Below, piece after piece: positions 1 through 43,079 of a stretch of 64,000 nt of DNA. The DNA is from Capitulum mitella. Its lineage: Eukaryota; Arthropoda; Thecostraca; Pollicipedomorpha; Pollicipedidae. Where the stretch lies: assembly GCA_030062745.1 (NCBI GenBank), contig CP099846.1, positions 19,935,621 through 19,999,620 of the forward strand, in the 5' to 3' direction. The notes under the pieces were generated by a model, which did no database searches, was not told the DNA's origin, and saw only the letters and a list, made by a program, of their open reading frames with translations. Numbering within the stretch: position 1 is the first letter of the stretch; every line of letters begins with the position of its first letter. Position numbers and translations under genes: made by a program.

Positions 1-1060
1 TTTTTCGGTTGTCTTTTTGAATTCCTTTTTCAGTCAAAAAGTTAATAAAAATAAAAAAGGATATCCGGCACCCCGTGTGCCGGTGTGCCGCTGTGCCGAT
101 CCGGTGCATGCCTTAAATCAAGCTGAAAAGTCAAAATTTGGCTGTAAATGAATATTTTCCATGCTAATCTTTTCAACGGAAAATTCGAAACACTGTAATT
201 CTGCCCAATGTTTTCTACCTCTGTTTCAAGTTTCAGGTCGGGGTAAGGAGCTAAGACGTGAAATGTCAGCGTGCTTACCCTACACGACGTATGACGGTCA
301 TAAACGGCACTTTCGAGGTATAAGGTCAATTTAAATCAGTGGAAACGTTTTCGAACACTATGAAATAAACCCAGCGTCGTTCCATATGACTGAGGTCATC
401 TGAAATCACTTGAATTTGAAAGTCTTAAGCTGACTTGATGAGCATGCGACCATGACTTTTCCCCGTTTTCATGCCCCTGACGCCGCCTATGCCAACAGTA
501 TACACAACAACGTAATGCGATATGTACTCCTGAAGTAAAGAACAACTGTTAATAGCCAATAATTATTTTGGACTTTTTGTTAATGCAGTTTTCCGAAAAA
601 TGTTCTTCCCATTTTCCAAGCCCAGTGATCAATACGCCTATCAATATTCTCAAAACTCAACATATGGGTCGAGGGAAAGTTCCATGAATTAGCTTTCGAT
701 TGATACCAGTTGCATGAAAATCCGTCAATAACCATCAGTCACAATAAGTAAAAAAAAAACACTTTTCTGGCTTTTTATCCCCACACCACCCCCACCCCGT
801 CCTTTAACCCCACCCCGCCCGTCTCTCTGGCCAGGTCATGGGGGCGGACTACCTGAAAACTAGCCGCATTACCATTCCCGTATTTTTGATGACGTCATGA
901 AATGCAGACCGTGGTCCATCGGCGTCGAGTCTCTCCATTACCGCCTCCGATCGCCATGTGAATCGCCTGCCCTACCGTTACGGCCAATACGCAATCCCAG
1001 ACACAGTGCGCGGCAACTACCGCAAATGCGCCATAGTTGCAACTAAGTAAGAAATATTCA
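1..1060. other. Non-coding flank, no gene recognised
   Basis: This stretch lies beyond the stop codon of the minus-strand gene that ends at 1383. I see no convincing exon. It holds a pyrimidine-rich patch near 778-830 and a full CRE-type palindrome TGACGTCA at 890-897. No AATAAA was found on the minus strand between 1 and 1383, so the 3' end of the neighbouring transcript is not placed. Confidence 0.5.
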
Positions 1061-1064
1061 ACGT

Positions 1065-1228
1065 CTTGATATCTCAAGAACACGTACTTTTTCTCTTTTC
1101 GCCCCAATGTCAGCAGTTACATCGCGTCTGACGCCTAACGAAACATCTTGATATCTCCGGAAGAACATGTATTTCTTCCTTTTCGCCCCAATGTGCGCAG
1201 TTACACTGCGTCTGACGAACAACGCTGA
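1065..1228. repeat. 82-bp tandem duplication, two copies
   Basis: The motif CTTGATATCTC starts at 1065 and recurs as CTTGATATCTCC at 1147. Both copies continue with the same order of blocks: a T-rich run, TTTTCGCCCCAATGT, then GCAGTTACA and GCGTCTGACG. The copies differ at several sites, including C-to-T changes in a CpG context. Nothing coding is apparent. Confidence 0.75.
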
Positions 1229-1382
1229 TCTCAGTCAGCAATGCTACGCTTCACCAAACGCCATAGAAATTTCCTCCAAAAGTGCCATAAAAATTTCTAA
1301 AAGGTCAACGAACCAATTACACAGCATTCGACATTCGCCCACCGCTGCACGCGCGAAACTCGTGCCGCGCGTCACCAGCGCC

Positions 1383-1710
1383 TCAACACTGGGGCTTGAG
1401 GAACTCCTTGGTCCGCTTGAGCGCCGGAGACTGGCTGGGAGCGCGCGGCGTCGCGCCGGCCGCCTCCTCCCTGGCCGAGCGCTGCCGCTTGGTGCCGAAC
1501 TTGCGGCCGACGGTGTCGACGACCGACGCGTAGTGGGACGCCATCTCCTTGTCGGAGACGTCGGCCTCCGGCCCGCGCTCGGCAGCGGCAGCGTCGCCAT
1601 CGGCGCCATCCTTCTCGGCCATTAGCGTCTCGATGGGCGGGTTCTGGCCGCCGTAGGAGCGGCGCGGAAAGACCAGCCGTTCCGGCTCGGCGTTGTATGT
1701 GTACTGCTGG
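1383..1710 (-). CDS. Terminal exon of the unrecognised 195-aa gene
   Basis: It begins after CCTTCCGCTTTCAG and reads QQYTYNAEPERLVFPRRSYG and onward for 108 residues to a stop. The first 29 residues look ordered (aromatic and Arg-rich). The rest is Ala/Glu-rich with SHYASVVDTVGRKFGTKRQR near the middle. Third positions are strongly G or C and CpG is dense, unlike exons 1 and 2. This explains why two other minus frames and the plus frame are also open here; those are shadows. Confidence 0.7.
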
Positions 1711-3405
1711 CTGAAAGCGGAAGGACCGGGTCCAGATCAGATGGCACGATCGCCAAATCGGACATGTAGGACCTGGCCGCAGGCTCCAACGGGACAGCTG
1801 GACGAAACAAATGTAAGCAGCTTTCTTACAGCCAGTAAATACGAAAACATTCATCTTTGGTAATCATTTTAGTACTCATGACAAAGGAAATTTCTCAGAA
1901 GATTCCAAAAGCGTTCGGTGAAGAGCACCAATGTCAGCAAAGCCCTCCAGTTTCACAAGAGACTTAGCTTATGAAGTAGGCTGTATCATGCATAAAATCA
2001 CAAAACAATGCGGATAAAACCAATCAATACGGTTTGCCATGTCTTTTGATGACACGATTTCAGCCACAACCTGGGTCGCTTGTATGACGGTTTAACCAGT
2101 CCAAGTCCTAACAAGTTTTATGGCTAGTACCAACCAATTTCCACAAAGCACGACCACACATAAACCAAGTCAATCCATCAACTGATTCACCCCTCCCCCA
2201 TATCCCGTGAAGTAATATGACAGGCGACTCAAATATTATGGGAGGCCTCTGCCTGGAGAGCACGAATGGACAACTTAAACGTACACCGGCCGCCAGTCAC
2301 GGCTACAGGGCGCTAACAGATATCACAACCGCTGGAATGTTAGACAGTCGTATATGAAATCGATCGTGGCATATGTCTGTGTTTTTTATCAATTTTATCC
2401 TGACTGGCTGCTGCGGTGATGGTAGCGATCGGCGCCCGTGGTAAGCACAGCTCGCTGCATCGATTCCGACCTCTTCGCCCGACTGAACAATTCCTGGTAA
2501 CGATTTGTCTTCTGGCAAAAGTTTCACGTGCTGCCAGGGAAGGGACACGATCGTATGGTAGTCAGCTTGACCTTTTACTGGCCAGTTGCCAGCTGGCCCG
2601 CGGGCCAAATATCCAGCGTCCAGGCCGATCAAACCCGTCTTGCCCGGACGGGGAAACCAGCGGTCTAATCAACTGAGCTTACGATCGCGGCTTCACGATC
2701 ACATTTGTCAATCCAGACATTTCAATAACACAGGAATGCATCACTTACAGTCAATCTGAAAAGGAAACGGTAATAAAGAAAAAACACAAGCAGCAAATAT
2801 CACCAACATGGCAAAAGTATGGAAAGACGAGGACGTGCAAATCACTTCGCAGCAACAGAACAACATTATCGAATTCTCACCCTGTCTCTTCTTTCACTTG
2901 TCCCGACTCAAACACCGGTGCATAGTTTTCCAGTTCTTCCTTCCGTTCTCTATCTTCCTTACTCCTTTTCATGAACTGAGGAAACAAGGACACGATGACA
3001 CAGCGATCATGCGCTTAATTTTTGCACCAAATGAAGCACAGCCAAATCTGTAAAATATGGCGCAGGTATGAAAAATCAACCAGGGTGAGGCATTTAAACA
3101 ATGACAAACAATAAGGTACTGTGCCACTGACCCATTATTGCAAGGTGATCGTATATGATGAGATAAGATCACATCACGCCATTAGGTTCAGTAACTTTCT
3201 TTCTGCAACTCTAAAAAATGTAGGAATTCAAGGAGCATACCTTAACAAGCTTTGCTGACACCTTGGTTCCACACATACTAGGACAGACAATTTTGGTGGA
3301 TGGCAGCACAGACTGTGTTACAATCACCTGCCATCTGCTCTCATTTAGCCCAATCTGCATCCCAAAACCCTTCTTTCTGGCAGCAATAACGTCCCACTCA
3401 AACAT
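1383..3405 (-). CDS. Three-exon protein-coding gene, product not recognised (about 195 aa)
   Basis: This is the only complete gene model I can build. Exon 1 (3405-3241) is 165 nt. Exon 2 (2975-2881) is 95 nt. Exon 3 (1710-1383) is 328 nt including the stop. Introns are 265 and 1170 nt, begin GTATGC and GTGAGA, and end TTTCCTCAG and GCTTTCAG. The junction phases agree: exon 1 ends in phase 0, exon 2 leaves two bases (GG), and exon 3 supplies one (C) to make Gly. The start is an ATG with A at -3, four codons after an in-frame TGA; an upstream exon spliced just before the ATG (at GATAG) cannot be excluded. The protein has a hydrophobic/basic N-terminal third with WDVIAARKKGFG, a charged helix-like exon 2 (KRSKEDRERKEELE), and an Ala/Glu/Lys-rich, probably disordered tail ending KRTKEFLKPQC. 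I see no signal peptide and no membrane span. The FGTKRQRSA stretch looks like a nuclear basic motif but is too short to name a family. Confidence 0.7.
2881..2975 (-). CDS. Exon 2 of the unrecognised 195-aa gene
   Basis: It follows a strong pyrimidine-rich acceptor (GTCCTTGTTTCCTCAG) and reads FMKRSKEDRERKEELENYAP and onward to KEETG. The donor is GTGAGA. The Lys/Glu/Arg-rich composition is typical of a short solvent-exposed helix. At 95 nt it is too short to appear as a long open frame; it was found by reading the minus strand in the phase left by exon 1. Confidence 0.65.
3241..3405 (-). CDS. Exon 1 of the unrecognised 195-aa gene
   Basis: It has 55 codons beginning MFEWDVIAARKKGFGMQIGL. 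It contains two Cys close together (IVCPSMCGTKV). It ends LVK followed directly by the donor GTATGC at 3240. No frame break occurs, and an in-frame TGA lies just upstream of the ATG. The plus-strand frame over the same bases ends in unrelated sequence and has no splice signals. Confidence 0.65.
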
Positions 3406-3779
3406 GTTTTCTATCGCTCAGCTTCGAAATGACCGGAACCGGTCGCGGGCTCACCAATATGATGTGGAATGACGCATAGGTGTAGGTGAGCCTCAGAAAG
3501 TGGGGGTGCTGAAGCCCATTTTGAAGTCGATTCCTTCCATATATGGCCATACAATTAATGTTCAGCATTCCCGGGAAGTCGGGGTGCCATAGTACCCGCG
3601 GATCACCCCATTCCCACGTCTATGGCATAAAGCCAAACCAAGCTGGGCTAGAGGAAACTAGTCATTCCTCTGTGAATGTTAACAAGAGTAAAGTGTACTG
3701 CTTACTGGGAAAACACAAAAGTTACAAATCGGGAGCCACCCAGGCATAGAAGGCATCACAGACTAAGTCATTTCATCTG

Positions 3780-6700
3780 TGTATCCATCAATGACATAGG
3801 GTGCTTTCTGATCACTGAACAAGTCATTTCCAGTTAACCATAATGCTCAACCTAAACATATTATGAAAAAGCACTTCTAGATGACAACCAGCACAATCAA
3901 TGAGCGGCACTGTTTAACCCACAGAATACAGGCAAGGATACAGTGGTATGGGGGAAAATGACAATTCTTGTTCCCATGAGGAACAAAAACCCATGTACTC
4001 CTAAACAATGTACAATAAGTGTTACTTAATGGCCTTCTTTTCAAAATGAGGCATTTCCAAAAATAAAAAAAAGGTTTCCAAAACATATAAAGGCTTAAGA
4101 AACAAAAATGGGCAACTAAGGAACCACAATAAATGGCAGATGAAAATATGGTTACTTTCAAAGACTGGTAAACAGTGATGTAGCCATGTGTACTTCCAAG
4201 GTATTGGAGATATGGTAAATAGGAATGCATTCACACCACACTGCTGAGGCTTTTGGACTTCTTATTGCGGTAGCCAAAAACCTTGTGCTCCAGATCAGGT
4301 AATAAAATAATTCTCTCAACCCTGGAATACAGTTTTGTGTTTGGCAATGAAGATCTGAAAACAGGAATGCATCTGTACTGTAGTGCCAAGATTTTCATAC
4401 TCATTGGTATTGCCCCCAAAAATTATATATTCCTGATCACGTAACAAAACCATTTTTCTAGAATACAGCTCTCCTGAAAGCAATAAAAATGGAAACACCA
4501 TGCCAGTGCACAAGACCCAAAAATACACAACAGCAGCACCAAGACATAAATGGGAAATCTCACTGAGTTATGTAAATCAAACAGTGCCAAGCTGGATCCA
4601 TTAGCAAAAGATCTCCACCTGTGGTAGATCATGGAAACACAGTGATGTCCATGAAGCATACAGAAATTCTTGGGGAGTTTCAACACAGTGCAGTCCATAC
4701 AGCAAAGGAACAACATTTGATTGATCAATCAATAACTTCTCTTTCCATGCACTTCAGAGACAATTATTCCACACTGCAAACTATTGCAAATACATGCAAT
4801 TTGCACAAATACCACAAAGTTCTGCTGCCTCTTGGTCATGTACATCATTTCCCCACAACCTTCCTGTCTTGCTTGTGTACACTAATTCCCATCTGTATGT
4901 ACATGGATAATTGCAAAAACTGCAGTGTGCATCAGAGAAGTCAGGTTATGCATTCAAGTATGCACTCACAATCATTGCCACCCAAGGGTGCTGGAGTGCA
5001 ACAAAAAGCAGGGGACCACTCATCCAGTGGATGCCAACCTACAAATGTCACACTTGGAGTGCAGTGCTGGAAACCAGATTTTTCTTCCTGGTGTCAGAGT
5101 ACAAATTCTCTTTTGGAATAGAAAATGTCATGCATTCCTGTGAGAAACATGGACTAACTAGGTGCTCTGCAAGCATATGTGGCCAGCAGGGGTGGATCCA
5201 GTGGCTCCATTCAGGGGAGGGGCAAACCAGTTTCCTGGGTCTATGTGGTAGATCAGCAGAGTCACTGACCTGGGGGATGGAAGGCAGCTGGCCATGGACT
5301 CAGAGTGCACTTCAGCGGCTGAGCATGAATTGTGAACCATCAGCCAGGAGGGAATGTTGGGCAACTTCAAACTCTAATTGAGTAGGAACACCCATGTCTT
5401 TTGGGAGAGGGCAAATGGCCATTCTGGAGTACAAAATTGTTCTTGGAGTATAAATTTCTTGGTGCTCCTTGACAACAGAAAGCAACAGTTTTTCCAACAC
5501 TACTGGGAGGCACTATCTACTTGGAATGTGACTGGTATGAATAAACTTCCACACTTACAGATTCCAAAGCACATCTTTTAATGCATTCCTATATTTAGGT
5601 GCATATAATGGTTTGCACAGGGCTGAGGATACCAAAATAATGGTCTGTACACTTGCTGCACAATACAATGGTTTGTACAGGGGCACTACATGTGAGGAGT
5701 GCCTGTTCTGTATGGGGATGCCCAACCTGCAGGGCAGAGCCCCTGAGGGGCACAAAATCTGTGAAGGGCACCTGACTTGTAAGGGGTGCCTTTCTCATGC
5801 ATGATTGGTCTGTCATGTGGGTCTGTAAGGTGCCTGGTCTACACAGGTGGGGGCACCTACTGTCTATCCTGTGTGGAGTGGCCAATATGTGAGGGCTACC
5901 TGATCTATGAAGGGGGGGACCTAACCTGTATGGGGCACCACCTCATCTGTATGTGAGGAGGAGGGCCTTGCCTGTATGGGGCAGCCAGCATGTGAGGGCT
6001 ACCTTAACTATATGGGGAGGGGCCACCTAGCCAGTACAGGGCATCAAGCATGTGAGGGTCACCTGGTCTGTATGAGGGCACCTGGTCTGTACAGGATACC
6101 AATTACATGAATGCTTCATTTGTACAGCAATACAGGGGGGTACCTGGAGCTTGATTACTGGAGCACACAAGAAGTCTCTGATCTGTACATGAGAAAGGTA
6201 TTGGAAGTCTGTTGTTGCATACAGGCCAAAAACACACTCCCAAGCAAAAAAAAAAAAAAACTACCAGGATTTCAGCTACTCTTTTAGTCATGGTTTAAGA
6301 AGTGTTTTTCAATTCTCTTTTTCCATTTTCTTCATGCCATTTTTGTGTTATGGCATAAAGAGGGCACCCACACCACAGGCTCAAAAGTGGCAGGACATGC
6401 TCCCTGTCTCTCAATCTCCCATACCTATGGTGCCACTGCTATGCTGAAACCTTAGCAGGACCTTGATGAAACTGAGGCTGGTTTTGACACAATCCCATTT
6501 TCTGATGACATTTCATTGTTGCTGCCCTGACTGCTGGCTCCTGAGGGCACAATGATGATTTCTGCCACAACACAAATGCACGCAGCAATTTGGTGTGCAC
6601 AATTAGGGGCTAGCTAAGGGGGAGGGGGGCAAGTATGCTATGCCCTTTTCTGCTGTTGAAACTTTGGTGCTTCTTTACATAACAAATATGAAAATGAATG

Positions 6701-7685
6701 CAAATTTCATAAAGTTGACAATAAATTTGCCAAAACACAATCAGTTTTCAGTTCTAAGGTTAGACTTGTCCATTCCCCTTTCTTGGTGATGTCCTGGCTA
6801 CATCCCTCATACCAGTCAATACTTTATCATATACACACTGAAAAACAGCAACAATAGCCTCATTACCATGGCAAGATTAAATTACAAGTCAAATTTCCCT
6901 CAGGAGGAAATCAGGTTTTTAAGTGGCATTTTTTCCATGGCCATACTAAAAAAAAATCTGGATTACATTCGAGATTTTTGAGTCCAAATTACTTGGGGAA
7001 ATCTTAAATCCATCTAGCATGTATGGCATTTCCCTTCAGGGCCTATAGGGATTTTTCTCCACAATATATTACCAAAGGGACTGAGCTGCTGTGAAGTGCT
7101 GGTGTTGTGTAAGATTTAAGAATGCTATTGTGCACTATTTTTTGTCAACAAGCTGCCAACGGTCAAAAATTGAGCTTGACGTTAACTCCCCCTTCGCAAG
7201 ATGCCAAAAAAACATGATGCATAATGCTCCTACATGCTTCTAATTTATGGGTTATCTGGATCACCTTGGGAAATCTTCATTGCCAACCTGGGCTCAGAAA
7301 TCAGATCTAATTTGGTAAAAGATGCATTTCCATGGCCTCCAAAATCAGGATTTGATGGGGATCCCATCCCAATTTGCTAGTGTCACAGAAGCCAGGCTAA
7401 AGCTTAGAGAAAGCAACCATCATGAGCATCACATACCATGTTGCAACCCTCACAGACTTTTGGCATGCCTTTTCCACAGACTGCAATGTAGGTTGGGGTC
7501 TTGAGCTACTATGGTTTGCATTTGTGACTTCCTCAAACCACATTACAATCATGCCACAAAAGAAAACAAATAAAGGGTAGTTGCCTGAACACAACCTGTC
7601 ATCCTGACAGGTGTTGCAATACAAAGGATGCTGGCAACATATCATGCTGAAGCATGGTTTACCTTCATGTCCAGAATATTACTGG
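3780..7685. other. CpG-free block A (3.9 kb)
   Basis: Reading every line, I find only about nine CpG dinucleotides in 3.9 kb: near 3905, 4268, 4440, 5316, 6581, 6970, and three between 7160 and 7196. TpG and CpA are plentiful. The flanking sequence, including the gene at 1.4-3.4 kb and the segment at 7.69-8.44 kb, has ordinary or high CpG. No exon was recognised inside. A run of A lies near 6246-6260. The expected cause is germline cytosine methylation followed by deamination. Confidence 0.8.
5590..6125. repeat. Degenerate internally repeated element, CpG-decayed copy
   Basis: Short units of the form CTGTAxGGGGCAxC recur throughout, for example at 5920-5939 and 5970-5982, separated by GCATGTGAGG and similar text. 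It matches the element at 56.76-57.26 kb, where the same unit keeps GGGGCGCC. The copy here contains no CpG at all. Both copies are followed within a few hundred bases by GCAAAAAAAAAAA. No coding capacity was seen. Confidence 0.65.
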
Positions 7686-8440
7686 ACAACGTTTTTTTCT
7701 GCATTGCGTTATCGAGTGGCTGTTCGCAGGCTTCAAAAACTATTTGCCTTACGAATGGAAGTTACTTTTGATTGCTATAGTTTCTCAAAACGTCAAAACG
7801 CCCCGCGTGGATGGTGCAATCGTTTATACGGGTTCGGACGCAACGGCGTGCGTGACAACGCGCGAGGACATATACTGCATCCCTCACGACTGCCTCGTGG
7901 TAATATCTCAAGATGTCCGCCCGCCAGGAGTGTTTGTCTTTTGTGCGCAGCATTTACATCCCCAAACACGCTAATAAAAAAAAAACGATGAAAAGGAATG
8001 AGCAAAATCTCTTTTAAAGCAAACAAAGAAAATAAAAATTGATGTCACATCTATTTTTCATGATACTGAGGCAAAATTTGCAATTTTTACAAAACTTGTA
8101 TTACTTGTGTATTTACACCATAGACAAGGGGAGATCGACTGCTGCCGTTAACGTCGTTAGCTGGTATTGGGCAGCGCGGTATGAGCGGTATGAGCGCCGC
8201 CATCTTTGAAGGTTGGCATGCGAGTTTGTTTACCATTACGGTCTTGGGGGAAAAACTCGTTTTTTGCGAGACGATAATTCATTGGTCATTGGAAGGGGAA
8301 TGTGCAGGTGCGTGTTACCGCGTTCATTCAACAATTTCCTGCAAGGAATCTGCTTGGCTGATATGGATCCAACCCGGTTCGGAGATAAAAGCTGGTGGCA
8401 AGTGAACAAGTACAAGCATCACCGGCACTGGCTCTTTGAA
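7686..8440. other. CpG-bearing segment between the two CpG-free blocks
   Basis: CpG returns abruptly at about 7690; the line 7801-7860 alone holds ten. A plus-strand frame of up to 106 codons (7654-7974) ends at a TAA that runs directly into AATAAAAAAAAAA. That looks like a retroposed 3' end or a chance A-run; the peptide is not recognised. The right half (from 8119) is one arm of the inverted pair described separately. It could be an unmethylated promoter island or younger inserted DNA. Confidence 0.55.
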
Positions 8441-8450
8441 CTGTTAATAC
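8119..8450 (+). repeat. Left arm of a 0.32-kb inverted repeat pair
   Basis: This arm matches the reverse complement of 11090-11408 over its whole length at roughly 75-80% by eye. Exact blocks include CGTGTTACCGCGTTCATTCA (8311-8330 against 11218-11237) and GGATCCAACCCGGTTCGGA (8365-8383 against 11165-11183). Homology starts at CATAGACA (8119) and fades near 8450. A shared frame gives similar peptides in both arms (for example SWWQVNKY and SWWQVSKY), but conservation at the DNA level explains that without coding. Confidence 0.85.
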
Positions 8451-11050
8451 AATGATGGTAGCATAACATGGTGGAAAATGGTGTTGTGGAGACAGGTCTA
8501 CCTTTTTGCTGTTTACCTAGTATTTGTTGTGTATGTATTTAACTGAAATAAAAAAATGGACTTGAAAAATGCATGTATTTTGGTCTGCCAGATTGATTGT
8601 TGTAACATGATGACTAATCCTCTTGAGTAAATAAAAATGTGTATCATTTTCAAGTATAAAGCATGGATAACATTATATCATGCAATTTGTCTGTCTCATG
8701 TGAGGAAATGGGTTTCCCAGGCTTAACAAAGTGTATTTTGTGCAGTGAACTGCTTATGGGTAGGCTCAGACCAAGTGTTAAGGAAGTATTAAATCTGTCC
8801 ATGTAGCCTAACTTACCCCCCAATGCTGATTTCTCTTCAGATTTTGGACTCTGTTTTGTCATTCTCAAAAATTTAAACATATGGGCCAAGGTTTGTTTCA
8901 AAACTAAATGCATGCAGTTTCTATCCAAGCAGGGAGCAAAAAGACATGCTGGTCCCAGATTTTGTACTGAATGATTGGCCATGGTCATGATGACCCATTG
9001 TATCTGCAAGAGGCACTGATGGTTCAATGCACCATTATGCTTGTTAAGTGTTTTTTCCATGTTCCAAGACTGTGGTGATGTTTGCAAGTATGAGTAAAAA
9101 GTTAGTAGTCTTTTTTACATGTATTGTAAATCTATTGTAAATATAAGTGGTATTTTAAGATTAATTTTTAAGTGAGAAACAGAACCCAGACCCACAAAAT
9201 ATTTATCTCAAAACTGTTCCAACAATAGTTTTATTTCATACATCCAGTTTGAATATGGTAATCCACCATCATGCCACACTAATGATGTAACAGTATGTGT
9301 TGCTTGCTATGCTGGATGCCTCAGCAAAATGAGATCACAATTCTCTGTTTGGTTTTGCATTTATAAATTGGGTTGACTGAATTGCCTCAATGTGGATGAA
9401 ACTTTGCAGGTTATTAGAAATAATGGTCAGATTCAGAAAGAATAACTGGTCTGAAATGAAGATGATACATCTCAGTTCCATACTGAAAGGCAATCTGCAG
9501 ACAGAATAAGAATGACACAATTATTTATCATTTGCAATTGGGATCTCCAGCAACAATATCTGTCTTATCTGTATGTATTATTTAGGCTTCTATTGGGAGG
9601 TGCTGCAGCCAGCATCAACAATGCCATAATCACTTCACAAACAAAAAACTATGCCTACCCTTGAGTCTTGTCTGGATTATGCACATTGCCACATGCCAAA
9701 ATCCAACACAGTGATTCCTTATGAAGTCCAGAAGTGGTTCTCCATGCATTATAGGCTAAATTGCCAGGCATTCTGTCAGGCATCAACTGTCAGCTTCATT
9801 TCATATCTTGTTCCTGCCTGGATGAGTGGTCTGGACTGCCACTCACTAGTGAACCCAGTAAATTTTTATTCTGATACTTTTTTTTGCAACTGTGGAACAT
9901 ACTGGCATTATTGTCACTGGCTAGACTTGCAGCATGTTTTCTTTATTTGGTACAGATATGAACCAATGTATGTGCAACACAAACATTCACAGGGACATGA
10001 TTTTTTGCTACTGACACTGTTCTGTACATTAAACCTTGAATGGAAACACCTGGAGAAAATGCTTTCTAAGATAAGCATTTCATTTCCCACCTGATTTCTT
10101 TATTCATAGTCCATATCATAGCTATGCTCACCATACTGGCATGTGGCTTGCTTTTGCTAAGTTTATAAAGTAAATGGGCTTTTGTTGTTGTTAACTGGTT
10201 AAACATTATACATTTCAACTGGATGAGTGTAACAGCATGCACAACAGACTTTCAGTCATTTGGAACTTAATGGAAAACATTATTTGTGCAACTGTTGTCT
10301 ACCATTGATGGCTGAAACCTGGTTCAGGGTCCTTTTGCACATAAAATTTACTTATTTCAAACATTGCTCACACATCAGAGGTACAGAAACTCCTTAATGT
10401 CTGGAAGGGGCAGAGGCTTTTTAAGCCATCTGTCTAGTCAGCTGTCACAAGGTCTGTTTAAAATTCAAAAAGCTATGGGGCAGTTCCCCCCTGGCCCAGT
10501 CCTGTTTCACTTTCCCTGTTGCATAGTGGCAAGCATTCATTGTTTTAGTACCCCAAGCTTTGGGTAAATACCCCCAAAAAACAGTAACTCAGCAACAAAT
10601 TCTTCAGATCTATTGGCCTCAGTTATCATAAAATGCATTAGTGCACATCAATGCCGGTTCATATATTTTGAAACAAACCATTACTTATTCTGCACATACC
10701 AAGCACTTGGAAAGTTACAGTTGACCAATAAGTGCACCACAATTCTGTTATATCTTGCTAAACTTTTGGAAGTCAAATTCTCCCCTCATAAATTAAAATG
10801 AATGCTACAGTTTTGCTTTAATTTTTACTTGCATATTAAAAATTCATTTTGCATTTATCAGGATGGCACCCTCTATTTGCATATACCTACTGTATACTGT
10901 TTGTACAGCATTGCTATATTTCCTATATATACCATACTCCTTCACCATACTGCAACCAAGTGGGCTATAACACAGGCCTTTTCCAAACACACTTTTTTAT
11001 TTCAGTAGAATGCATACACATCATTGGCTAGGTGAAGAGCACAAAGTGGC
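8440..11050. other. CpG-free block B (2.6 kb) inside the inverted repeat
   Basis: I find a single CpG (10655) between 8424 and 11051. GC content is near 40%, so more than 80 would be expected by chance. The block lies exactly between the two CpG-bearing inverted arms. A plus-strand frame of 147 codons at 9651-10094 and a minus frame of 145 codons at 8650-9087 are present, but neither has recognisable motifs and neither is flanked by convincing splice sites. Confidence 0.8.
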
Positions 11051-11089
11051 ACGCCAATCTCCATATGGCCATTTTTTACCAGGCAATGT

Positions 11090-11408
11090 TGCTCTGTGCG
11101 TTAATAAGTCAAGGTGTGAATGCCGGTGATAATCGTACTTGCTCACTTGCCACCAGCTTTTATTTCCGAACCGGGTTGGATCCACATGAGCCAAGCGGGT
11201 TCCTTGCAGAAAAATGCTGAATGAACGCGGTAACACGCGCCTGCGCGTTCTCATTCCAAAAGCTACTAGAACTACCACCTCGCAAAAAAACGAGTTTTCC
11301 CCATAGGACGTAATGCTAAACAAACCCACATGTGCCCAACCACAAAGACAGCGGCGCTCATACCGCGCCGGCCAATGACAGCAGCCGATCCACCCTTCTA
11401 TGTCTATG
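11090..11408 (-). repeat. Right arm of the 0.32-kb inverted repeat pair
   Basis: Read on the minus strand this is the partner of 8119-8450. It begins at TGTCTATG (11401-11408 on plus) and ends near 11090. It is CpG-bearing, with GCGCCTGCGCG near 11236-11246 and GGCGCTCATACCGCGCCGGCC near 11353-11373. The arms plus block B could be one 3.3-kb element with long inverted ends, or two insertions of the same short element in opposite orientation. No clear target-site duplication was seen at the outer ends. Confidence 0.85.
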
Positions 11409-11922
11409 ATTTACACTTCCTAAAAGACTTGAAAGTATGCATGATATTCAGGGTTGTCAATCTGTATTCTTTCGAGGGGGTCCTGGCCCACCCAATGTTA
11501 ATTTAGGCCCCTCCAATGTTGGTTTGAACCCCTCCAATATTTTCTGCCAGTTTTGAAGGGAACTGGGCAAACAACGAAAGAAACGGCCGCAAGAATTAAA
11601 AGATCGGCAGAAAGCGTAGAATAAGGCATAAAGTGATAGATCTATCTTTTCATCTTCTGTATATATAGATATATGATACATATATACCTATAAAGAAAGG
11701 ACATGCGCAGTTTTTTTTTATTTGAAAAATAGTAAAAAAAACTCAAAAATTTCCATTTATCAAAATAAAGTGGCTAAATTCCGTTGAGAAACCTACATTT
11801 GGGGGAGGTCAGGTTGTCGGGCCCGCGGCTCAGCCCATCCGATCATTTACAGAAATTGACGCCCCTGAAGATATGGCGTTTGCAAGCACTGGCGCCAATA
11901 CCGCCATTCAAGGCCAGGGGTG

Positions 11923-11975
11923 TTCCTATGGCCGATTACACTGGTCATATGGCCTAGTGTAATCGACCATAGGAA
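11923..11975. repeat. 53-bp near-perfect palindrome
   Basis: The left arm 11923-11942 (TTCCTATGGCCGATTACACT) and right arm 11956-11975 pair at 19 of 20 positions. The 13-base centre is itself nearly symmetric around CATATG. It would extrude as a cruciform or fold as a hairpin in RNA. It stands alone, without obvious terminal repeats around it. Confidence 0.85.
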
Positions 11976-12044
11976 AGCCAATTTTTGCTAGCAGCGACCC
12001 CGCAGTGACGTCACTGGGAATGAGTCCCTGGAAGGGTGGTGTAT

Positions 12045-12185
12045 CAGAAGGCTGAGGTTCAGAAGGTCAAAACTCAGAAGGTCGAGGCTCAGAAAGTCAA
12101 GGTTCAAGAAGGTCGAGGTTCAGATGTGTCGAGGTTCAGAAGGTCGAGGTTCAGAAGGTCGAAGCTCAGAGAGTCGAAGATTAAA
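12045..12185. repeat. 15-bp minisatellite, about nine copies
   Basis: The unit is close to AGGTTCAGAAGGTCG. Because 15 is a multiple of three, the plus strand reads as a five-residue periodic peptide (QKVEA-like, then RFRRS-like after a one-base slip near 12110). I regard this as a consequence of the repeat and not as a gene. Confidence 0.85.
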
Positions 12186-14744
12186 CTCCATTGTCAGATT
12201 ACCAAGCATGTCTGGGGAGGGTCGTGGTAGGGCCGGCTGAGACAAGAAGTCTTTGTTGTCCGCGTGGCCCCCGAACCTGGCCCATAGGCAGATCCAGGGG
12301 GAGCAAAATGGGCAATTTCCCTTCGCAAAAAATTGTCCGAAAAGTATGTGGCCCACGGACGTAGTAACGGGGGGGAGGGGATGTTGAGAAACTCGCTTGA
12401 GAGGGGGTGGAAGGTTAAGCTGTAGTTTCCGGTTCGTCCCCCACCCCCCTGATTCGCATAAAACAACACCCCTGCCTCATGTAACGTAGCTGCGTCTATC
12501 GTTGTTGGGAGTCGAATGGAAAAACAGACGTATTTGGATGCACCATGATGACAACTGCGGTTGGGCAAAGCTGGTCGTTTCAGTAAATATACCATTAGAT
12601 GAAGTTAAAATGTGGCCTTTACACACTTGCAAAGGCTCGAAGTATTGAGAAAAGGATTGGGGTGCGTCCCGACTGTGCCCTTCACCCACGCACCTATTTG
12701 TTCCGGGAATGTCGCGCCAGGGTGCGTTAATCAAACAGCGCGCCAGCGTTGGTCAAACACCTCGCCAGTGTCGTCCAGGTTCGGATCAGCCCCCTGTGGT
12801 GCCGGAGAAGGAGACGCAAAAACGGGCGGGATCGCCCAAGTTTTCTTCATGCTTAGAATGGTCCCGTTGACTCTTCTAGTCATGGAGCGCCCGTGCCATC
12901 CTTATGCTAAGTTAAGTTCTTTCACTTTGATATTTGATCTCACCAGGAAGATCAACGGCCGATCCAGTCTACGAAATGTTGATACTGCTGGAAAGCGTTT
13001 GTCAGTTGTAACATTCTGGATTTGACTTCGTCTGTCTAAATTGTTTTGTTCTTGATCGGCCGGGAAATATATGCTATTTTTTCATCATTTTTTCTTTGTT
13101 CATTTCACCACGTTTTCGTCTTTTTCCAAAACCATAAATTTTGATGGCCTTGGAGATCGCCATTTTTTCACATTTTTGGAAACAGGTTTCAAAATTTTCC
13201 TTAGAACGGTTAAAATGATGGAGAAACACCTTTGCTGAATATTTTCGAAACAATCTTTTTTAGTCACCCTCCCTACTGGGTACACACCAGACCACTCTGA
13301 ACGTAATTACGAAACGATGCTTGCATAGCGTAATTTGGTTTATTTAATATCAACCAAACATAGGAATAGACCGTTTGGTGAAGTCCTGCATCACGAGCGG
13401 CTAAAAAACCTAGGATGTGCGTATAAAAAATTCGACACATTTCGGTGTCAAAGCAGTCTGATTCAAAAGGCTGTCTTGGCCAACCAGGGACAGACTCGAA
13501 ACGGATATCATCCCAAAGGAAATTTAACAGCACATCGCATAACGTCCTGTGTGCGCTTGAAAAGAATGCTTATAGTGGGAAAAGAGAAAACCGGCCTTTT
13601 TCCCGTGTTTTTGCCTTTTTGTGTCGGACGTTGAGACAGTCGCCAAGAACAGACGTTCAAAGTGAAATGTAGAATGAAGTCAAGTGCATTCAGAAATTGG
13701 GTCTGTCATGTACAGGAGCGTCCAGGAAGGAGAACGTTACCGTCATTTATGACAATCCACACTCCAAAACCCAAAACAAACCAAAGATTCCAAATGTCAG
13801 ACTGCTTCAAAAGCGATACCATTGGAAACCGAGCTGTTAGTGGTGTTCATGAACCTTGCTTAACAAAGTAAGCAGGCCTAGTCTATTTGAGTAGCCTCAG
13901 TCTTTTTGTCTGTCGATAAATATTTGCTCCGGTCCAGGGCCCAAACGGCGGATCGGCACTTGTGCAACGTTCAAAAGATCTTGCGCGCAACCAGAAAATC
14001 CAACAATTTTCGTCGTAATGCGACCCGTTGTTGGCGCTTGCTCCCGCACTTCAAGGTCGATTTTCAGTCCAGAGGGATAGCACGTAAAACGGGAAACGCA
14101 AACAGCATCAAAAATCGTTTCGGTTCCGACAAGTTTTCTCAGCAACCACGGGTCAGATAAACTCGAAACGCAGCAACTTGGAATGGCAATGCACGCGGCA
14201 CGTGCAACGCGCAAGCGGTGGCAATGTGACGAAGCTGCTGCTAGGCATTTTTCAGTACGGGTAGGGTGCTAGCGATTCAGAGATCGCATCGGCTCGGAAA
14301 AAGCATCACAGTGTAGCTCCGAGTACCGTCTTTCGTGCGTACCGCTAGCCCAAAGGTTTCGGCCCTGTTTCAGGCGCCATCTCGCCTGAAAGCAGACGAT
14401 GCACCCATGCATGACCCCTTTAACGATTTCGCTTCAATATCGCATAGAGATTCTCGACTTTTTGCAATGAAAGTCACACCATAATTTAGCCCGGTCTTTT
14501 CTGTTTTATATCAGCGACAGACATTTCTTATTTTGTTGTAGTTTGTGTGTAGCAGGTCGTTTGTTAAAGTCCTGCAAGTCCCAATTGAGTAGTTGTGTAC
14601 TCAAGCATTACGAAATTCTAGGTTTTTGGCCAAGACGAGGTCGAGGCCACAATCTGTAAATGTTTTAGCGTGGGACCACAAAACGATTTACTGTATCGTA
14701 GCATGCAATACAAGAAAAATCGAGACTGGCAATTGAAAACAATT

Positions 14745-14935
14745 TATTACAGTTCTGTGTAACAGTTTTACAGTTATGTAACTATTCAGGCGATTTAGGC
14801 TTTCTGTTCTGCCAGTGATATTTTTTCGCAGTTTATTCAGGATGTTTACTGCGACCAGCGCGGCAATCATGTAAGGTTTTGGTCGTGGCGCTGTCGTCGG
14901 CAAGGAGTTCCTGAATTTCACTTTAAATAGCATCT
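14745..14935. repeat. Copy 1 of a directly duplicated 0.15-kb segment
   Basis: This segment and 15475-15632 share the order CAATTTAT, CAGGCGATT, TTCTGT, TTCAGGATG, CAGCGCGGC, GGTCGTGGC, GTCGTCAGCAAG/GTCGTCGGCAAG. On the minus strand both encode a similar short peptide around LADDSATT, broken by stops. It may be a decayed piece of a mobile element; no reverse transcriptase motif accompanies it. Confidence 0.65.
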
Positions 14936-15474
14936 TCAGCATGTAATGAATGGATCAAAAGAGCTACGTGAGCTACGCTTTCGCCATTTTTAGACTCGTG
15001 TACGTATATGTATTTGCAAATGTTGAAACACTTGCTTACTGCCCGTGGTCTCAGCTGAATTACATGAATGGCTTTGTGGGGAATGGGATTTCAGAAAGTC
15101 GCCGCCAGTCACAGCTCAGAAAAAGTAAAGATGTCTGGGGAACGACTGCCGTAATGCGGAGATTCGCTGACCGAGTCATTGGTCTACAGACATTCAATGA
15201 GTCCCTTGACTTGACATTTGACTTGATTAAACTAACCATTGACAGGCTAAATGGGGTCATGCTATCTGGGCGCTTCGCTATGGGATTTGTTACGTGACCT
15301 ATGACCACAAATGGCAGGTTGTGGTCACCGTCGACGAACGAATTTGTCAGTGACTGTCGCCATAACACGTAGAGCAACGGCGAACGATCCTCAGTCATAC
15401 ATTAAAATGACTAACTGTATGATTGTTTCACGCGACACATGCAAAAATCAAACCTGACAATAAAAACACAATTT

Positions 15475-15632
15475 ATCACAACATAGCATCAGGCGATTCA
15501 GTGTTCCTGTAATGCCGATGCCGTTTTCCTTATTGCTTGTTCAGGATGCTGGCTGTGAACAGCGCGGCGACCCTGCAAAGACTCGGTCGTGGCACTATCG
15601 TCAGCAAGAATTTCTTTAACCCGCGCCCGACT
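15475..15632. repeat. Copy 2 of the duplicated 0.15-kb segment
   Basis: This is a direct-orientation partner of 14745-14935, about 0.75 kb away and roughly 65-70% identical by eye. The intervening 15.0-15.4 kb holds open frames on both strands (115 and 112 codons) that match nothing I recognise. Confidence 0.65.
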
Positions 15633-15639
15633 GTGGGTC

Positions 15640-17420
15640 GGGGCTATGCACGCCTGACTGGGGGGAGGTGGTTGACTGCCCCCAACTCACAAACGGTTGG
15701 TCATACGGCAAAAAATAATCACATCGTTGGAAAGCTCATGACGAGTGGAACTCGAAACTGGTCTCATTTTTAGTTTTGAATAATATGTGAGCCATTTACG
15801 CCCTACATATGTTTTCTCATAGCCGCCTGCATGAGACCGAAAAACGGCCTGAATCTCAAGGGCTGTGACTAATAAAGTCTAGACAAAGGCTTAGAGTGGA
15901 TGTGGAGTGGCAGTGAACAGGTAACAGTCCGCAGATGCCGATACATGTCTAATGTCTGATTTGCTTAATATGTGCACGGAAACGTTGAGTTAAAGACACG
16001 GCGGTTTTCGCACCGCTGCTGGGCGGACGCTATAAGCGAGCGCGGTAGGAAATTAACGGGAACTGGTTTTAGCGCTGAAAGGCATATTTTCGCGAAATAT
16101 GCTTTTCCAGATGTTGTTTCTTGGTCCTAGTGGTTCTCGTGATAGTTTCTTGTGCTTAAATGCGGAAAACATTTTTTAGTGATCAGTCTACACAATTGGT
16201 AAAGCTTTATTTGCGAGAGCTAGTTTATTTCCCAAATTTGCAATTTTTCAACTTTTTGAGCTTTTTGGTATTATTCGCAATCGTCCGAGATGCGAGATGC
16301 TTAGACAATCTGCCATTATCTACCCGATGTGAGTCATTCGTCGTCGATTTTGATGGCAGCGCATTGCTGCCCATAACAGTTATTCGTGACCTGACCTAAG
16401 ATCAGTGGTCGGAGATCATTGAAACTTTGCTCACTGACGGAAACGGGATGTCTGGATCTCCCCACACTCAAATTATTATAAAAAAGAATTCCCTCAACTT
16501 TCGAAAAACGACGACTTATGCTGAAAACGGGTTTGAACTTAGGTCAATGACCCGGACATTTCCAAAAATCCGAGATAGCATATTTGTTGCATTCATCAAA
16601 ATCTCTGACCCTTGAAAATTTTATTGCGACATCATGTTTTGCGAAAAAGTTACAGGGCGCTAAACTTTTTGGACATAGGTCCACATGACCTGAGCTAGGT
16701 CAGACACCTTACTTGGCCTCAGGTCAAAATTTGGTACAAGGTGTAAAAATGATCAAGCAAAAGGTATACAAAGTTTCGTGGCGCTGCTTTTCTTCGTTTT
16801 CTCGCAATCTCGGAAAAACCTCAGAGGAGGCCGTCAACTGTCCCCCCACCCTCCCAGCCGGGGGCCAGGTTAACTGCACTTTTAGTATCAACTTCATCAT
16901 GTCATGAATGGATGAAGGGCAGGGGTGTGATTTCCTATCTCTTTGTGAGTACCCCGGCACCCACAAAGTGGAAATGGGCATCCACAATTTAAATTATGTT
17001 TAAGTGTTGAAATATAGTTGTGTTCTCGGTCCCATGACGTTAACCACCTAAAATCAGCTTTGTAAACAGTAATCAAACTTATCTACTCCATTGTCACCCA
17101 CCAGTTGTTTTTCCCACCACCCTTCAAGTCACACTGTCAATCCGGGTCCTGGAGAAAGGTCCTCCGTTGAAGGGAGTGCATCTACTCAAGTCGCGATTTT
17201 TTAACTGTGCACGTACGAATGAAGAAGCCAAATTTTATGAATCCAAGCGCAGGTACCATTCATTCTTGCCATCTTGCTCTCGTTTACTCATGTTTTACTG
17301 GGGCAGGTGAGTTCGCTGACTGTCAACCCAAGTTTGATCTATGTACCCCATTTTCTTTTAACACTAAAATCGCCGATGAATCGGTTTAGCGCATCGTTAG
17401 CCTCAACGATGTCGAAGCTT
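15640..17420. other. Non-coding stretch with AGGTCA-type half sites
   Basis: No gene is supported. Between 16389 and 16740 there are several TGACCT/AGGTCA hexamers in both orientations (near 16390, 16688, 16696 and 16722), like the clusters at 24.1-24.5 kb and 48.3-48.75 kb. The 16.8-16.87 kb part is a short C-rich patch. Confidence 0.4.
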
Positions 17421-17554
17421 ACAGAAGTTGACGAACACCAAAATGAGAGGAGAGAGAAGAGCAGACAGGCGCGTCGAGGACAGAAGCGGACGGAACAGCA
17501 TCCGGCTTCTGCAGCGAAGACTACCCTCTTCACGTCCCTCACTCTTCCTCCCCC

Positions 17555-18060
17555 TCAGCTCCCACACCGCACTTTTCAGAGCGTGTGTGGTAGCTTCCCC
17601 CTTCCCTGTCTTGTACTGCCCTTGTAAGGGCGGCACAGGGCTCCTCCTTTTCCTTCCCACCCCCCTCCTTCCTTCGACCCCCCTCCCCACCCCCCAGTCC
17701 TCACACTGCACTTTCCAGAGTGTGTGTGTGGCTGACTCCCAACCCTTCACTCCTCCTGCTTTGCCCTTGTGAGGGCAAAGCAGTGCCCTTGTGCAGGGCT
17801 GCCTCCCCGCTCACCCCAGCCTTTGTCCTTCCGGGGGATAGCACAACGCATTTGTAGTGCGTGTGTATTCCCTCCCCCCTCCTTCGGTGCTTCCACCGTA
17901 AGGGCGCCACTTTCGCTTCGGTGACTGCGGTGCCTCCCTGCCCTTGTTAGGACGTGTAACACTCCGGTGTAGAGCCTCGTGCTCTGCTCTGTCGCGTAAG
18001 CGGCGTCCCTTTTTTCTCTTTGCTGTCCTGAGCCTTTTCTTTACTAAACCTAGGCCACTG
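17555..18060 (+). promoter_or_regulatory. Hairpin-rich repeated leader of the LINE
   Basis: Three loosely repeated units each have a GTGTGTGT-type tract, a C-rich tract and a small hairpin: GCCCTTGTAAGGGC near 17619, TGCCCTTGTGAGGGCA near 17761, and a related ACCGTAAGGGCG near 17897. The units recur about every 130-140 bp. Repeated leaders with internal promoter function are known in several LINE families; here that role is inferred only from position. Confidence 0.5.
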
Positions 18061-18289
18061 GGGATACCTAACGGTGCACAGTCTCCTCACTTGGCCCTCC
18101 GGGGGTGGTGAGGAGGTTCAGCGCACCAGGTGCGCTTTCTAGCTCCTCTTCACTCCCTCTACGAGACCTACTCTGTCCCGCCTTTCCATCCTCGCAGTGG
18201 CCACATATAGTCCCACTCCACTACATGTCACACAGGAAATAGTATTTCTCACACGGACCTCACACTTAACCTATCTCAGGTTGTCGGAC

Positions 18290-19176
18290 ATGTCTTTTCG
18301 GGACCCCCGACGGGGTCCCCCGAAACCGGGTGGTGCCCCTCGGGTGGCACGCCTGTCCCCCCAGTTTCTGCCACCTCTGAATGAGGTGGTCATCTTCCTG
18401 CGACCTCTTGAGGGTCGCTTCACTAAAAACCCGTTCGCCATCAAGAGGGAGCTCGACTCTACCCTGGGTCCGGTCCGCACTGCCAAAGTGGTGCGGTCCG
18501 GATCCATCTTGATCCAGACGCAACACAAAGCCCAGACAGACAAGATCATGGGACTGGCCTCCTTCCTGGGGGTCGCTGTGTCACCGGAAGTGGCATCCTC
18601 CCTTAATGTCATTATTGGCACCTTGTATGCCCCAGACTTGACCGACTTGTCTGAGGAGAAGCTCCTGGCCGAGTGGCAGTCCCAGGGGGTCTGCCAGGTG
18701 TCTCGACCTCCTTCCCGGAGACGGAGTCCGGCCCCAACCATCAATGTAGCTTTTTGGGGTCCCCGCCTCCCCCAGCATATTTATGCTGGCTACCTCCGCC
18801 TGGCAGTCCGACCGTTTGTGCCCGCCCCCAAAAGATGCCGGCACTGCCAGCGGTACGGACACACCGACAAACCTGCCGCACAAAGACGCCCACTTGCGGC
18901 ATGTGTGCGGCTGCTCGTGATACTCGGGCCTGCCCTGAGGAAGCCTCCTGTCTGTGTGCCGTTTGCGGTGGCCCGCACCCCGTTTGGGACGCCGGCTGCC
19001 CAGGTTGGGCATACTTCTGCCGGAGGGAGGCCGAGAAAGTCGAGAGACGCCTACAACCCTCAGACCTCCCCCTCGCGGCCCCCAAGAATGGCCGACGCCT
19101 AGCGAGGCCCACGAAAGCCAGAGACCTCACCTTCCTGGCCCCTCTCAGGCAGACAGGAAGGAGCCTTGCACGATAG
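18290..19176 (+). pseudogene. Gag-like ORF1 of a non-LTR retrotransposon, one frameshift
   Basis: The first ATG (18290) opens a frame that reads through a nucleic-acid-binding gag of the type annotated as 'nucleic-acid-binding protein from mobile element jockey'. The region after residue 35 (LPPLNEVVIFLRPLEGRFTK) resembles the RNA-recognition-like fold region of that family. Then comes PTINVAFWGPRLPQHIYAGYL and a CCHC knuckle, C-x2-C-x4-H-x4, starting with the TGC at 18836. The last Cys of that knuckle lies in another frame. At about 18868-18873 the reading shifts by one base, and the second frame carries the remaining Cys/His motifs (CGMC, then CAVCGGPHPVWDAGC) and stops at 19176. Such a chain of knuckles is standard for jockey/I gag proteins. 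Total length is near 295 codons. The single indel makes this copy non-functional as it stands, unless programmed frameshifting is invoked; I see no slippery heptamer of the classic kind. Confidence 0.8.
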
Positions 19177-20317
19177 ACAGAAAATTTGTTTTTACTGGCC
19201 GCGCCAGCAACGACCGCACGTGGTCGGGGCGCGATGGCGGCAGCCTGGCCCAACGGAAATAGGCTCCGGCTGCTGCGGTGTTTGCAGCGTTTTCATGCCG
19301 TGTTTTTTGCTTCCAGCCAGGTTGTAGACATACATTTTTATACGTGGTATTCGTGATGTTGTGACATTATATACCAAACAGGATCTGTGCGTTCTTTTTT
19401 GGAGCTGTGGTGTTTTTTAACGTTTCAGTGCTACATTTTGTTTTTTACAATGACAATAAGATAACCGACAGTCCTCAGTTTTCAGAATCAAGATCCACAT
19501 CACTTTTCTGAAGGAATCCAAAACCAATAATGGTCTTTCCGCTAAGACACACGAATGTTCCTGTGAAAATGTTGCCAAAGCCAAGACATAATATGATCCT
19601 TCAGTACGAGCATAAGACTGTTGCCAAAGAATGCGAAACCAAGAACGGTCTGGCTGCTTAGAATGACAGAAGTATCTGCTGAAACTAAAACCAGAAAAAC
19701 TAACTTCAGATTTTAACCATCTTTAACAACCACTTAAATTATCCTGTCAAGGAATTCGGGAGCTTAAGCAATATTCACATGAAAGATGTGCACCTTTAGT
19801 CATAAAATCGACTTGAAAATCTTAAAACGAAGGCGGTATCATGCGTGAACCCAAGACGACTTATTTCGCTCAAAATGAAGAATAAGAAGCTCTCCCAAAG
19901 ACAAAAAAGGCATTTGAATATATTTGGTCTGATCTGAATAGAGCACACGAGAACACGAAGACTGCATAGCATCTCGCAGATGTTTTTAGTGCTGTCACGG
20001 AGAAACCGCAAAGCTACTCGAATTAGCTGAGAGTTGGAGTGACCTGATTTTGAGAGGATTGGTCTTTCTATGCCTCACGTAACAACAGCTCTCGTCCCAG
20101 AGAGTCATGCTGGTGACGGAGCTTTTGAGTGTTCTCTAAGTCTTGGCCATGACTGTGATGACGTCGGAGTGGATGTGATAATTTTGGATTTGTGATGATG
20201 CATGTAGAAATGGTTGCTGACGTTTCGGAGGACGCACTCCAAAAGTATTTACTGCGTGATGAGTGCTGCTGTCACTGTTGTCAAACCACTTCATAATATG
20301 CATATACTGTTGTTCAT

Positions 20318-20357
20318 ACATATGCATTTACATATCACTGTGTGTAAATGCATATGT
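20318..20357. repeat. Perfect 15-bp inverted repeat, 10-base loop
   Basis: ACATATGCATTTACA at 20318-20332 pairs exactly with TGTAAATGCATATGT at 20343-20357. The arms are AT-rich. A related ATATGCATAT motif lies just upstream near 20296. Confidence 0.85.
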
Positions 20358-22628
20358 CCAAGAGTGAAAGTAGTAAATATCTGAACTGTGGTTCTAATCT
20401 GTAGCCCAAGTCGTTTGGATAAAAGTAATACTACATGCATTCTGGTATTATCTACGTTTTCAAATCAATATTGTTTTGCTAGGGACTGATTTTATTTGTC
20501 CATGGAGCTGCGTTTGCGTTGTTCTTTTATTTAATTTGCGTTTCTACAGTTTTTAAGTAAATTCCAGGCTAAGCAACATTAAAATCCTTGAAACAATCGG
20601 CACAGTTCCATGGTCGCGCTGGCAAAACGGGGAAGCTTGGCTGGGGTTCTGAGATTTCTTGGAAGCGTCTGAATATACCTTGATGCGTCGAGTGCAGGCG
20701 GTGAAATCAGCCGTGTCGCCAGAAACTATGCCGATTATGCTTCAAAGCGAAAAACAGTCTGAGTTCTAGTATGCTGGAGCTCTACCGCTAGGCCGCAGCA
20801 CGAGTATTCCGCCGTTTGCTAGGTGGCGCTAGTGCTTCTACCTCTGGCGCTGCTCTTCCTGCGGCACGGCCGCCGGCCTCGCCTGGCACTGTCAGTCCGG
20901 CCGGTGGTGCGCGCGTCGGTTGACGTCGTGTTGGATGTTTTGCACGGTATAGCGGGCGTCGTCTTCTGGTCATGCGAGCCGGGCGGTCTCCCCCCGGCGG
21001 CTTGCTTTTCCCCGCCTGACAGCGTGTTCCCGTCTCGAGCCAGCAGCACGTGTCCTCTGGGAGGAAACGCAAACACGCGTTATCCGGCTGATGCTTTGTG
21101 ATACGGCCCAGAACAGCCATGGCCGTTTGGTAAGGTTAACAGTGGCGTCAATGGCCGCATGGTAGTACGGTGGACGGCAATGTGGTGGGGAGGAGGCCAA
21201 GATACGAAAGAATCCACGTCCTGGATTGGAGTACGCGAACAGACAGGGGCTGCTGGGGGAGGGGAATCTGTGAGGGCGGCTGCTCCAAAGTGTCGTGGAA
21301 TGTAATATAAGCGCCATGGCGTCGCATGCGAAACACAAGTTAAAAATGGCCTTTACCTCCGTAACCCTGACAACGTTCCGTCAGTTCATGGAGGTATCAC
21401 GAAGATGAATTGAAGCAGTCATGCTGGGTGGGGGCATTGTGTGGGGACTTCAGGAAAAACTTAGTCTGAAAATATGGAATGAAATAAGCTTTGCTGTGCG
21501 TCGGTTATGACCATTTTTGCTTTTTGTTAAAATCTAAAAAAACATGTTTTGCCCTGCTATCCTGCTATTCTTAATACATAACCCGTTTGTCAAGCTCGTG
21601 TCATCTCGGATTTCGCAAAAGCTCTCGGTAGTCTTATGCAGAACTCCAATGGCCATTGTCTTTTAAATCTAAAGATACTTTACGTGCCCAAAGTCTTGGA
21701 ACAAGGTGTCATGAAGCATGCAAATGCGAGTTCCAATGTCTGCAATATTCATTCATTGATTCATATGTTTTCATCAAATAAACAAAACAGACACTGAAAG
21801 CATAGGCAGAATTGGTTCAGAAGTCCTATCGGGACTTATTCGGAGCACCGTTCTGCTGACATGTTTTTGACGTACACCGGTAGGCGAGGCATTTTATTTT
21901 ATTTTCATTGCAATTGAAGTAAAATTCAGCGGCCCAGTCTTCGCTGATAAGAAGTGCACTTTTAAATTTACCTTAACTCTAAAGATCTGCGTTTGAAAAT
22001 TCGGAGTAGCCGCGCTTTCTCCTGAGGTCTGCTGAGATCCAGGCTTTTACCATATGAGAAGATTTGTATTTTTGAACCCCCAAGGAGCAATGTAAAAATC
22101 AATCCTAAAACGCTTGACATCCAGAAACAGATGAGTCTGTCCGAGGCTGGTGTAATAAGGAAAGGGCAAGATGAAACCGAATAGCTTTCCAATGGGTTTT
22201 CCGCATCCGCATGCAGGACTTAATGTCATTTTGTTTCAGAGAACATTACTCTTCTGTTTCGAAAAAAAGTGTAGCATTCAAAGCAAAACATTTATGAAAA
22301 TGTCAAGCATGAAATACAGCATTCTTTGCCTCAAAAAAGCCGGTCAGCCACGAGGTTATTCGCTGCAGAGCCCACAGTGTGCAGGACTTCGTGGAGTGGA
22401 AGGTTTTAGTTAAGCCTTTAAAATAAGCAGCCAGGATCACGACGGACGTCACTCACTTGCCATCTGTCCTTGTCGAGATTCTGGGTTAAGCGCACACAGT
22501 GGTGCTGGGCTTCCCTCAAAAAAGAAAAGGCAGAGGGGAGCGGCGTGATCCAGCGTGATGTGTTTCGAATGAATGTTCGAGTTTGATATTTAAGGTAACA
22601 ACCACATGGGCACGGAAGGCACTCCTGT

Positions 22629-22646
22629 CTACCCTTTAAAGGGTAG
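22629..22646. repeat. Perfect 18-bp palindrome with TTTAAA centre
   Basis: CTACCCTTTAAAGGGTAG is its own reverse complement. The half TTAAAGGGTAGGGACAC resembles ends of the MITE-like element at 35.88-36.64 kb, so it may be two abutting element ends around a TTAA target. Confidence 0.75.
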
Positions 22647-36642: not shown

Positions 36643-36649
36643 TCCTTCG

Positions 36650-43040: not shown

Positions 43041-43079
43041 TTGAAACAGTTTGCTGGAACTTTTGTGGGTGCTATTACT

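Follow-up and report, generated by a model that had tools for sequence, protein, structure and literature searches.

In Ciona, gene bodies including their introns are methylated, promoters are likely to shape the 5' edge of the methylated domain, and methylation normally drops at the 3' end of the transcription unit (excerpts of PMC3827831). For arthropods, methylation was reported to be enriched in exons in most of the species studied and to concern a shared set of genes with even expression, its extent along the gene being variable (excerpts of PMC7343188). Strong methylation of transposons is described as scarce in invertebrates (PMC7343188, PMC11292947, both in part), which counts against the explanation preferred in this study. 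P elements produce target-site duplications of 8 bp, and internally deleted, non-autonomous copies of them occur (PMC1562414, PMC7776569, both in part).

In the present study a window of 64,000 nucleotides from Capitulum mitella, i.e., the whole stretch of DNA under analysis, was investigated with regard to two blocks almost devoid of CpG. Judged by their sequence, these deserts are probably scars of long-standing CpG methylation in the germline, one in the first intron of MPHOSPH6 and the other in the interior of a transposon, within DNA otherwise at CpG parity. MPHOSPH6 is an RNA-exosome cofactor gene. The pattern of CpG loss is of a known kind, and the locus is of interest for the following reasons: First, the start (inside coding exon 1) and the reach (most of one intron) of a presumed germline methylation imprint can be resolved to the base; second, one repeat family with a copy within a desert and a copy outside provides a built-in control; third, the transposon interior raises the testable question whether its desert arrived together with the element.

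CpG content, edges and TG/CA balance of the two blocks

A two-state HMM segmentation of CpG assigned 3618-7689 and 8424-11051 to the deserts; as its CpG rates were preset from both blocks and the remaining sequence, it refines the edges and is no independent test. The original prediction of two nearly CpG-free blocks, the first of which should hold over a hundred CpG by chance, was borne out. Block 1 (3780-7662) contains nine CpG as against a mean of 178 and a minimum of 146 in 1000 single-base shuffles, and block 2 (8448-11050) contains a single one as against a mean of 89 and a minimum of 63 in as many shuffles. The corresponding observed/expected ratios (o/e) are 0.05 and 0.01 vs 1.00 for 11409-64000, and 1.25 was obtained for the segment between the deserts (7690-8430), in agreement with the ordinary or high CpG anticipated around and between the blocks. 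The longest CpG-free gaps of the window (2232, 1265 and 876 bp) all lie within the two blocks, and the longest one beyond 3-11 kb measures 200 bp; windows of 400 bp with o/e below 0.25 occur outside the deserts only near 43.0 and 44.8 kb. At a GC content of 0.43 in block 1 and 0.37 in block 2, GpC reached o/e values of 1.09 and 1.26, respectively, and was thus without depletion. Sharpness of the edges, which had been assumed throughout, was found to the right of block 1 and on both sides of block 2 (near 7.69, 8.43 and 11.05 kb), but block 1 tails off gradually to the left (2976-3617, o/e 0.57).

Loss of CpG with a matching gain of TG and CA on both strands, an accounting expected of the deamination of 5-methylcytosine, was found in the deserts. 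The o/e of TG/CA amounted to 1.53 in block 1 and 1.56 in block 2 vs 1.10 elsewhere, and the counts of TG and CA were similar in each (351/401 and 243/234, respectively). In a counting model, in which missing CpG were restored from TG and CA until CpG reached an o/e of 0.97, reversion of the excess lowered TG/CA to 1.06 in block 1 and 1.16 in block 2, close to the 1.10 of the remaining sequence. The excess accounts for the missing CpG and therefore fits decay of methylated CpG. Indirectly in favour of the long-term germline methylation put forward originally are thus the CpG loss, the TG/CA gain and a CpG-keeping relative of a repeat in block 1 (see below); from these we infer methylation as the cause, which would be the likeliest one.

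The MPHOSPH6 gene and block 1

A Pfam search in six frames of 1-13500 (E up to 0.05) yielded MPP6 as the sole family, encoded on the minus strand. The spliced model of MPHOSPH6 (M-phase phosphoprotein 6), predicted from sequence only, comprises 154 aa in three coding exons on the minus strand, with GT donors, AG acceptors, agreeing phases and a stop at 1383-1385. Its product aligned by residues 4-123 to the whole profile of Pfam MPP6 (PF10175; 1-133 of 133) with an E-value of 8.3e-21 and 75.2 bits at a cut-off of 29.4. Residues 3-153 matched the solved M-phase phosphoprotein 6 chain 6d6q_L (E 2.9e-13), and the solved chain 6h25_K was matched as well (E about 3e-13), both chains being human. 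In the whole profile and in these two chains the product corresponds to MPHOSPH6/MPP6, and nothing notable differs.

Coding exon 1 (7663..7704, minus strand, 14 codons) aligns with 6d6q_L and is followed by the donor GTAAAC from 7662. Intron 1 (2976..7662, minus strand) has a length of 4687 bp, and exon 2 (2881..2975) and exon 3 with the stop codon (1383..1710) follow on the same strand. The 5' flank (7705..8110), which displays 25 CpG and an o/e of 1.44, is the presumed promoter. The edge of the desert is the CpG at 7690, within coding exon 1 and 27 bases ahead of the splice donor; of intron 1, the desert takes up 4045 bases (3618-7662, o/e 0.05), passes into the graded tail and ends short of exon 2. 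The original prediction had seen no exon inside the blocks and had left unclear which gene body, if any, was concerned; both statements are superseded by the finding of MPHOSPH6, since the sharp edge of block 1 sits in a coding exon and the block makes up most of intron 1.

Intron 1 would accordingly be read as having been methylated in the germline over a long time, methylation probably starting just inside coding exon 1, beside the CpG-rich 5' flank, and fading ahead of exon 2, in a pattern as of transcription-linked gene-body methylation laid behind an unmethylated start site. Depletion within a gene, a sharp 5' edge, an adjoining CpG-rich 5' end and the inclusion of introns are shared with invertebrate gene-body methylation (excerpts of PMC3827831). 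However, depletion in MPHOSPH6 is confined to intron 1, whereas methylation in arthropods is mostly exon-enriched (excerpts of PMC7343188), and the desert stops earlier in the gene than methylation does in Ciona. Exon 2 (o/e 0.89, from three CpG), intron 2 (0.93) and exon 3 (1.22) are without CpG depletion, which counts against the preferred explanation, and the coverage of coding exons typical of arthropod gene-body methylation was not found in MPHOSPH6. Block 1 would work like gene-body methylation, and full membership in this class is not claimed because exons 2 and 3 are not depleted. In a limited literature search on MPHOSPH6 methylation the gene was not named among the matches listed, from which its absence from the literature does not follow.

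Block 1 harbors a degenerate repeat array (5541-6180, bounds set by eye) with 0 CpG, and a relative of this array outside the deserts (56881-57230, bounds likewise by eye) contains 24 CpG at an o/e of 0.83. The comparison was based on the three best alignments, two of which reuse part of the 57-kb copy, so that the cells depend partly on one another; one more alignment, weaker and leading to 52.4 kb, was left uncounted. None of the 12 aligned CpG cells of the outside copy (8 distinct sites) was kept in block 1, where six appear as CA or TG and the other six as neither, the latter counting against a reading as decay. Of the GpC cells in the same alignments, 9/17 were kept in block 1 (Fisher 0.003 vs CpG, the cells being partly dependent). 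GGCGCC was present six times outside and was missing inside, and GGCACC and GGTGCC together were missing outside and present six times inside. On this small count, the repeat of block 1 shows the same CpG loss relative to the outside copy.

The transposon enclosing block 2

The two blocks had been treated together. They are not of one kind, as block 1 is mostly MPHOSPH6 intron 1, whereas a DNA transposon flanked by a target-site duplication has block 2 as its interior. The element (8119..11408, 3290 bp) begins with CATAGAC and ends with GTCTATG, and, as expected of cut-and-paste transposition, these inverted ends are flanked by ATTTACAC twice (8 bp each; left copy 8111..8118, right copy 11409..11416). 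Both copies agree in 8/8 positions, and for random pairs of sites at equal distance the rate of a common 8-mer is 4e-5. The left outer arm (8119..8423, 305 bp) carries 19 CpG at an o/e of 1.06, the right one (11052..11408, 357 bp) 22 CpG at 1.02, and the interior desert between them (8424..11051) a single CpG in 2628 bp. By the bounds of gene and transposon, the CpG-rich segment separating the deserts consists of the 5' flank of MPHOSPH6 and the left arm. The inverted arms of ~0.4 kb are 84% identical in an ungapped stretch of 159 bases and 77% identical along roughly 400 bases (E 1e-75), and they form the sole strong inverted repeat in 1-16000, the other pairs listed there having 25-30 nt and at most 73% complementarity. 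In the aligned arms, 12 CpG are common to both and 18 occur in one arm only (8 opposite TG/CA, 4 opposite gaps). An AATAAA-like signal common to both arms is located near the inner end of each (8540-8560 and 10985-11005) and possibly marks the end of a short inward transcript.

A Pfam search in six frames of 8119-11408 (E up to 10) detected no domain and no THAP-type transposase, because of which the transposon is considered non-autonomous or decayed. Duplications of 8 bp are also made by hAT transposons, so that this length is indecisive for the P superfamily; the duplication fits both. The terminal CATAG fits CANRG, which we take to be the P consensus; CANRG was not found as such in a limited literature search. 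For termini of the P superfamily YARNG was given (PMC2820524, in part), which CATAG does not fit. An 8-bp target duplication and inverted ends are features common to P, hAT and the present element, but its inverted arms measure ~0.4 kb vs 13-31 bp for the ends given in excerpts of PMC1562414 and PMC7776569. It further differs in having no transposase or THAP match, although a non-autonomous copy would lack transposase anyway.

With both settings at hand, an origin of the deserts as foreign or misjoined DNA, e.g., by vertebrate contamination, or as a CpG-avoiding viral insertion appears extremely improbable: sharp edges and the lower GC (0.43 and 0.37) would agree with it, but the splice sites of MPHOSPH6 span block 1, transposon and duplication embed block 2, the repeat of block 1 has its relative at 57 kb within the same window, and Pfam matched nothing inside the blocks.

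According to the preferred explanation, a cut-and-paste transposon, non-autonomous or decayed, would have inserted in front of MPHOSPH6, about 0.4 kb from the coding start; the interior of the element would have been methylated, and either arm would have remained unmethylated over its outer 0.3-0.36 kb. A lesser but by no means negligible chance is given to block 2 having been CpG-poor already when it landed, be it that the family was methylated elsewhere or that methylated host DNA was captured between CpG-rich arms, with block 1 explained as before. This alternative shares methylation as the cause with the preferred explanation and differs in timing, and the odds of the two overlap. In spite of an intact duplication and an arm identity of 77-84%, a single CpG survives, about 106 having been lost according to the counting model, and by a rough estimate CpG would have had to decay more than 20 times faster than other change if the entire loss had followed insertion; moreover, the desert begins at much the same depth in either arm (305 and 357 bp). 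However, the duplication was discovered through being intact and its 16 bases are a poor clock, and the arms may have been dissimilar originally or may have undergone gene conversion. As the intact duplication and the moderately diverged arms fit poorly with a near-total later loss, part of the CpG loss of block 2 may predate the insertion, having occurred at previous locations of the element or in captured, depleted host DNA. It seems rather unlikely that the transposon family as such carries a methylation scar, i.e., unmethylated CpG-rich arms around an interior that underwent germline methylation at previous locations, with the CpG loss inherited through transposition. If true, such an element could bring unmethylated edges and a methylated core to a new promoter, in this case that of MPHOSPH6, with 0.4 kb between the element and the coding start.

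The CpG-rich arms, the AATAAA common to both near the inner end and the sharp edges within them, which look like promoter edges, could also be those of a second transcription unit that would be very short or non-coding, would be driven inward by one arm or both as promoters and would have block 2 as its methylated body. GCCGCCATCTTTG in the left arm, altered in the right one, is YY1-like and was counted in favour of such a unit. Transposition is nevertheless indicated by the 8-bp duplication and the matching CATAGAC termini, the six-frame Pfam search was without a domain, and the best-matched part of the arms (159 nt) displayed 14-19 nonsynonymous vs 3-4 synonymous codon differences in the three inward frames. 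Folds of the arms were no better than those of shuffles (57/100 and 97/100 as good or better), and altogether we consider a second unit improbable compared to the methylated transposon interior.

Open frames and further features of the window

From stop to stop, the two longest open frames measured 181 aa and 156 aa in block 1 and 154 aa each in block 2. Frames as long as the longest arose in 3.3% (block 1) and 1% (block 2) of 300 dinucleotide shuffles, and frames as long as the second-longest in 0/300 for either block. Stop triplets are scarce on both strands (344 vs a mean of 402.5 and 277 vs 310.6; 0/200 shuffles as low), because of which the long frames were read as base composition and, with no Pfam domain found, dropped as coding; a coding exon without a known domain inside a desert is possible. 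The arms were rejected as a coding exon by the codon differences in the inward frames, and as structured RNA by folds no better than shuffles and no Rfam match at gathering score. Rfam gave 0 matches at this score in the whole window and, in 7600-11500, a single match below its cut-off (E 1.3). A 42-base pattern of the arms had 0 exact matches in viral contigs, and a tRNA search with bacterial settings found none.

Six-frame Pfam searches covered 1-13500, 13501-23500 and 36001-46000, complemented by ten chosen frames elsewhere. A fragment of a reverse transcriptase was recognized at 49774-50385 on the minus strand (Pfam RVT_1, E 3.9e-20). The two 500-bp windows over it have ordinary CpG (o/e 0.86 and 0.97), and hence not every mobile element in the window is CpG-depleted. 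A smaller CpG-poor stretch at 44751-45300, with 400-bp windows of o/e below 0.25 and a gap of 200 bp, is possibly another short methylated patch. At 43085-43259 a 24-bp tandem repeat rich in GCTGCT, whose 500-bp window has a CpG o/e of 0.27, overlaps the CpG-poor 400-bp windows near 43.0 kb and may account for them. A G+C-rich minisatellite of 22 bp in 18 copies (28361-28759) is surrounded by a zone (26-36 kb) with many 500-bp windows at 60-77% GC. Furthermore, a short array of 15-bp units with AGGTC-like motifs was observed at 12044-12170, and a dispersed pair of repeats with 68% identity at 47349-47583 and 63031-63275.
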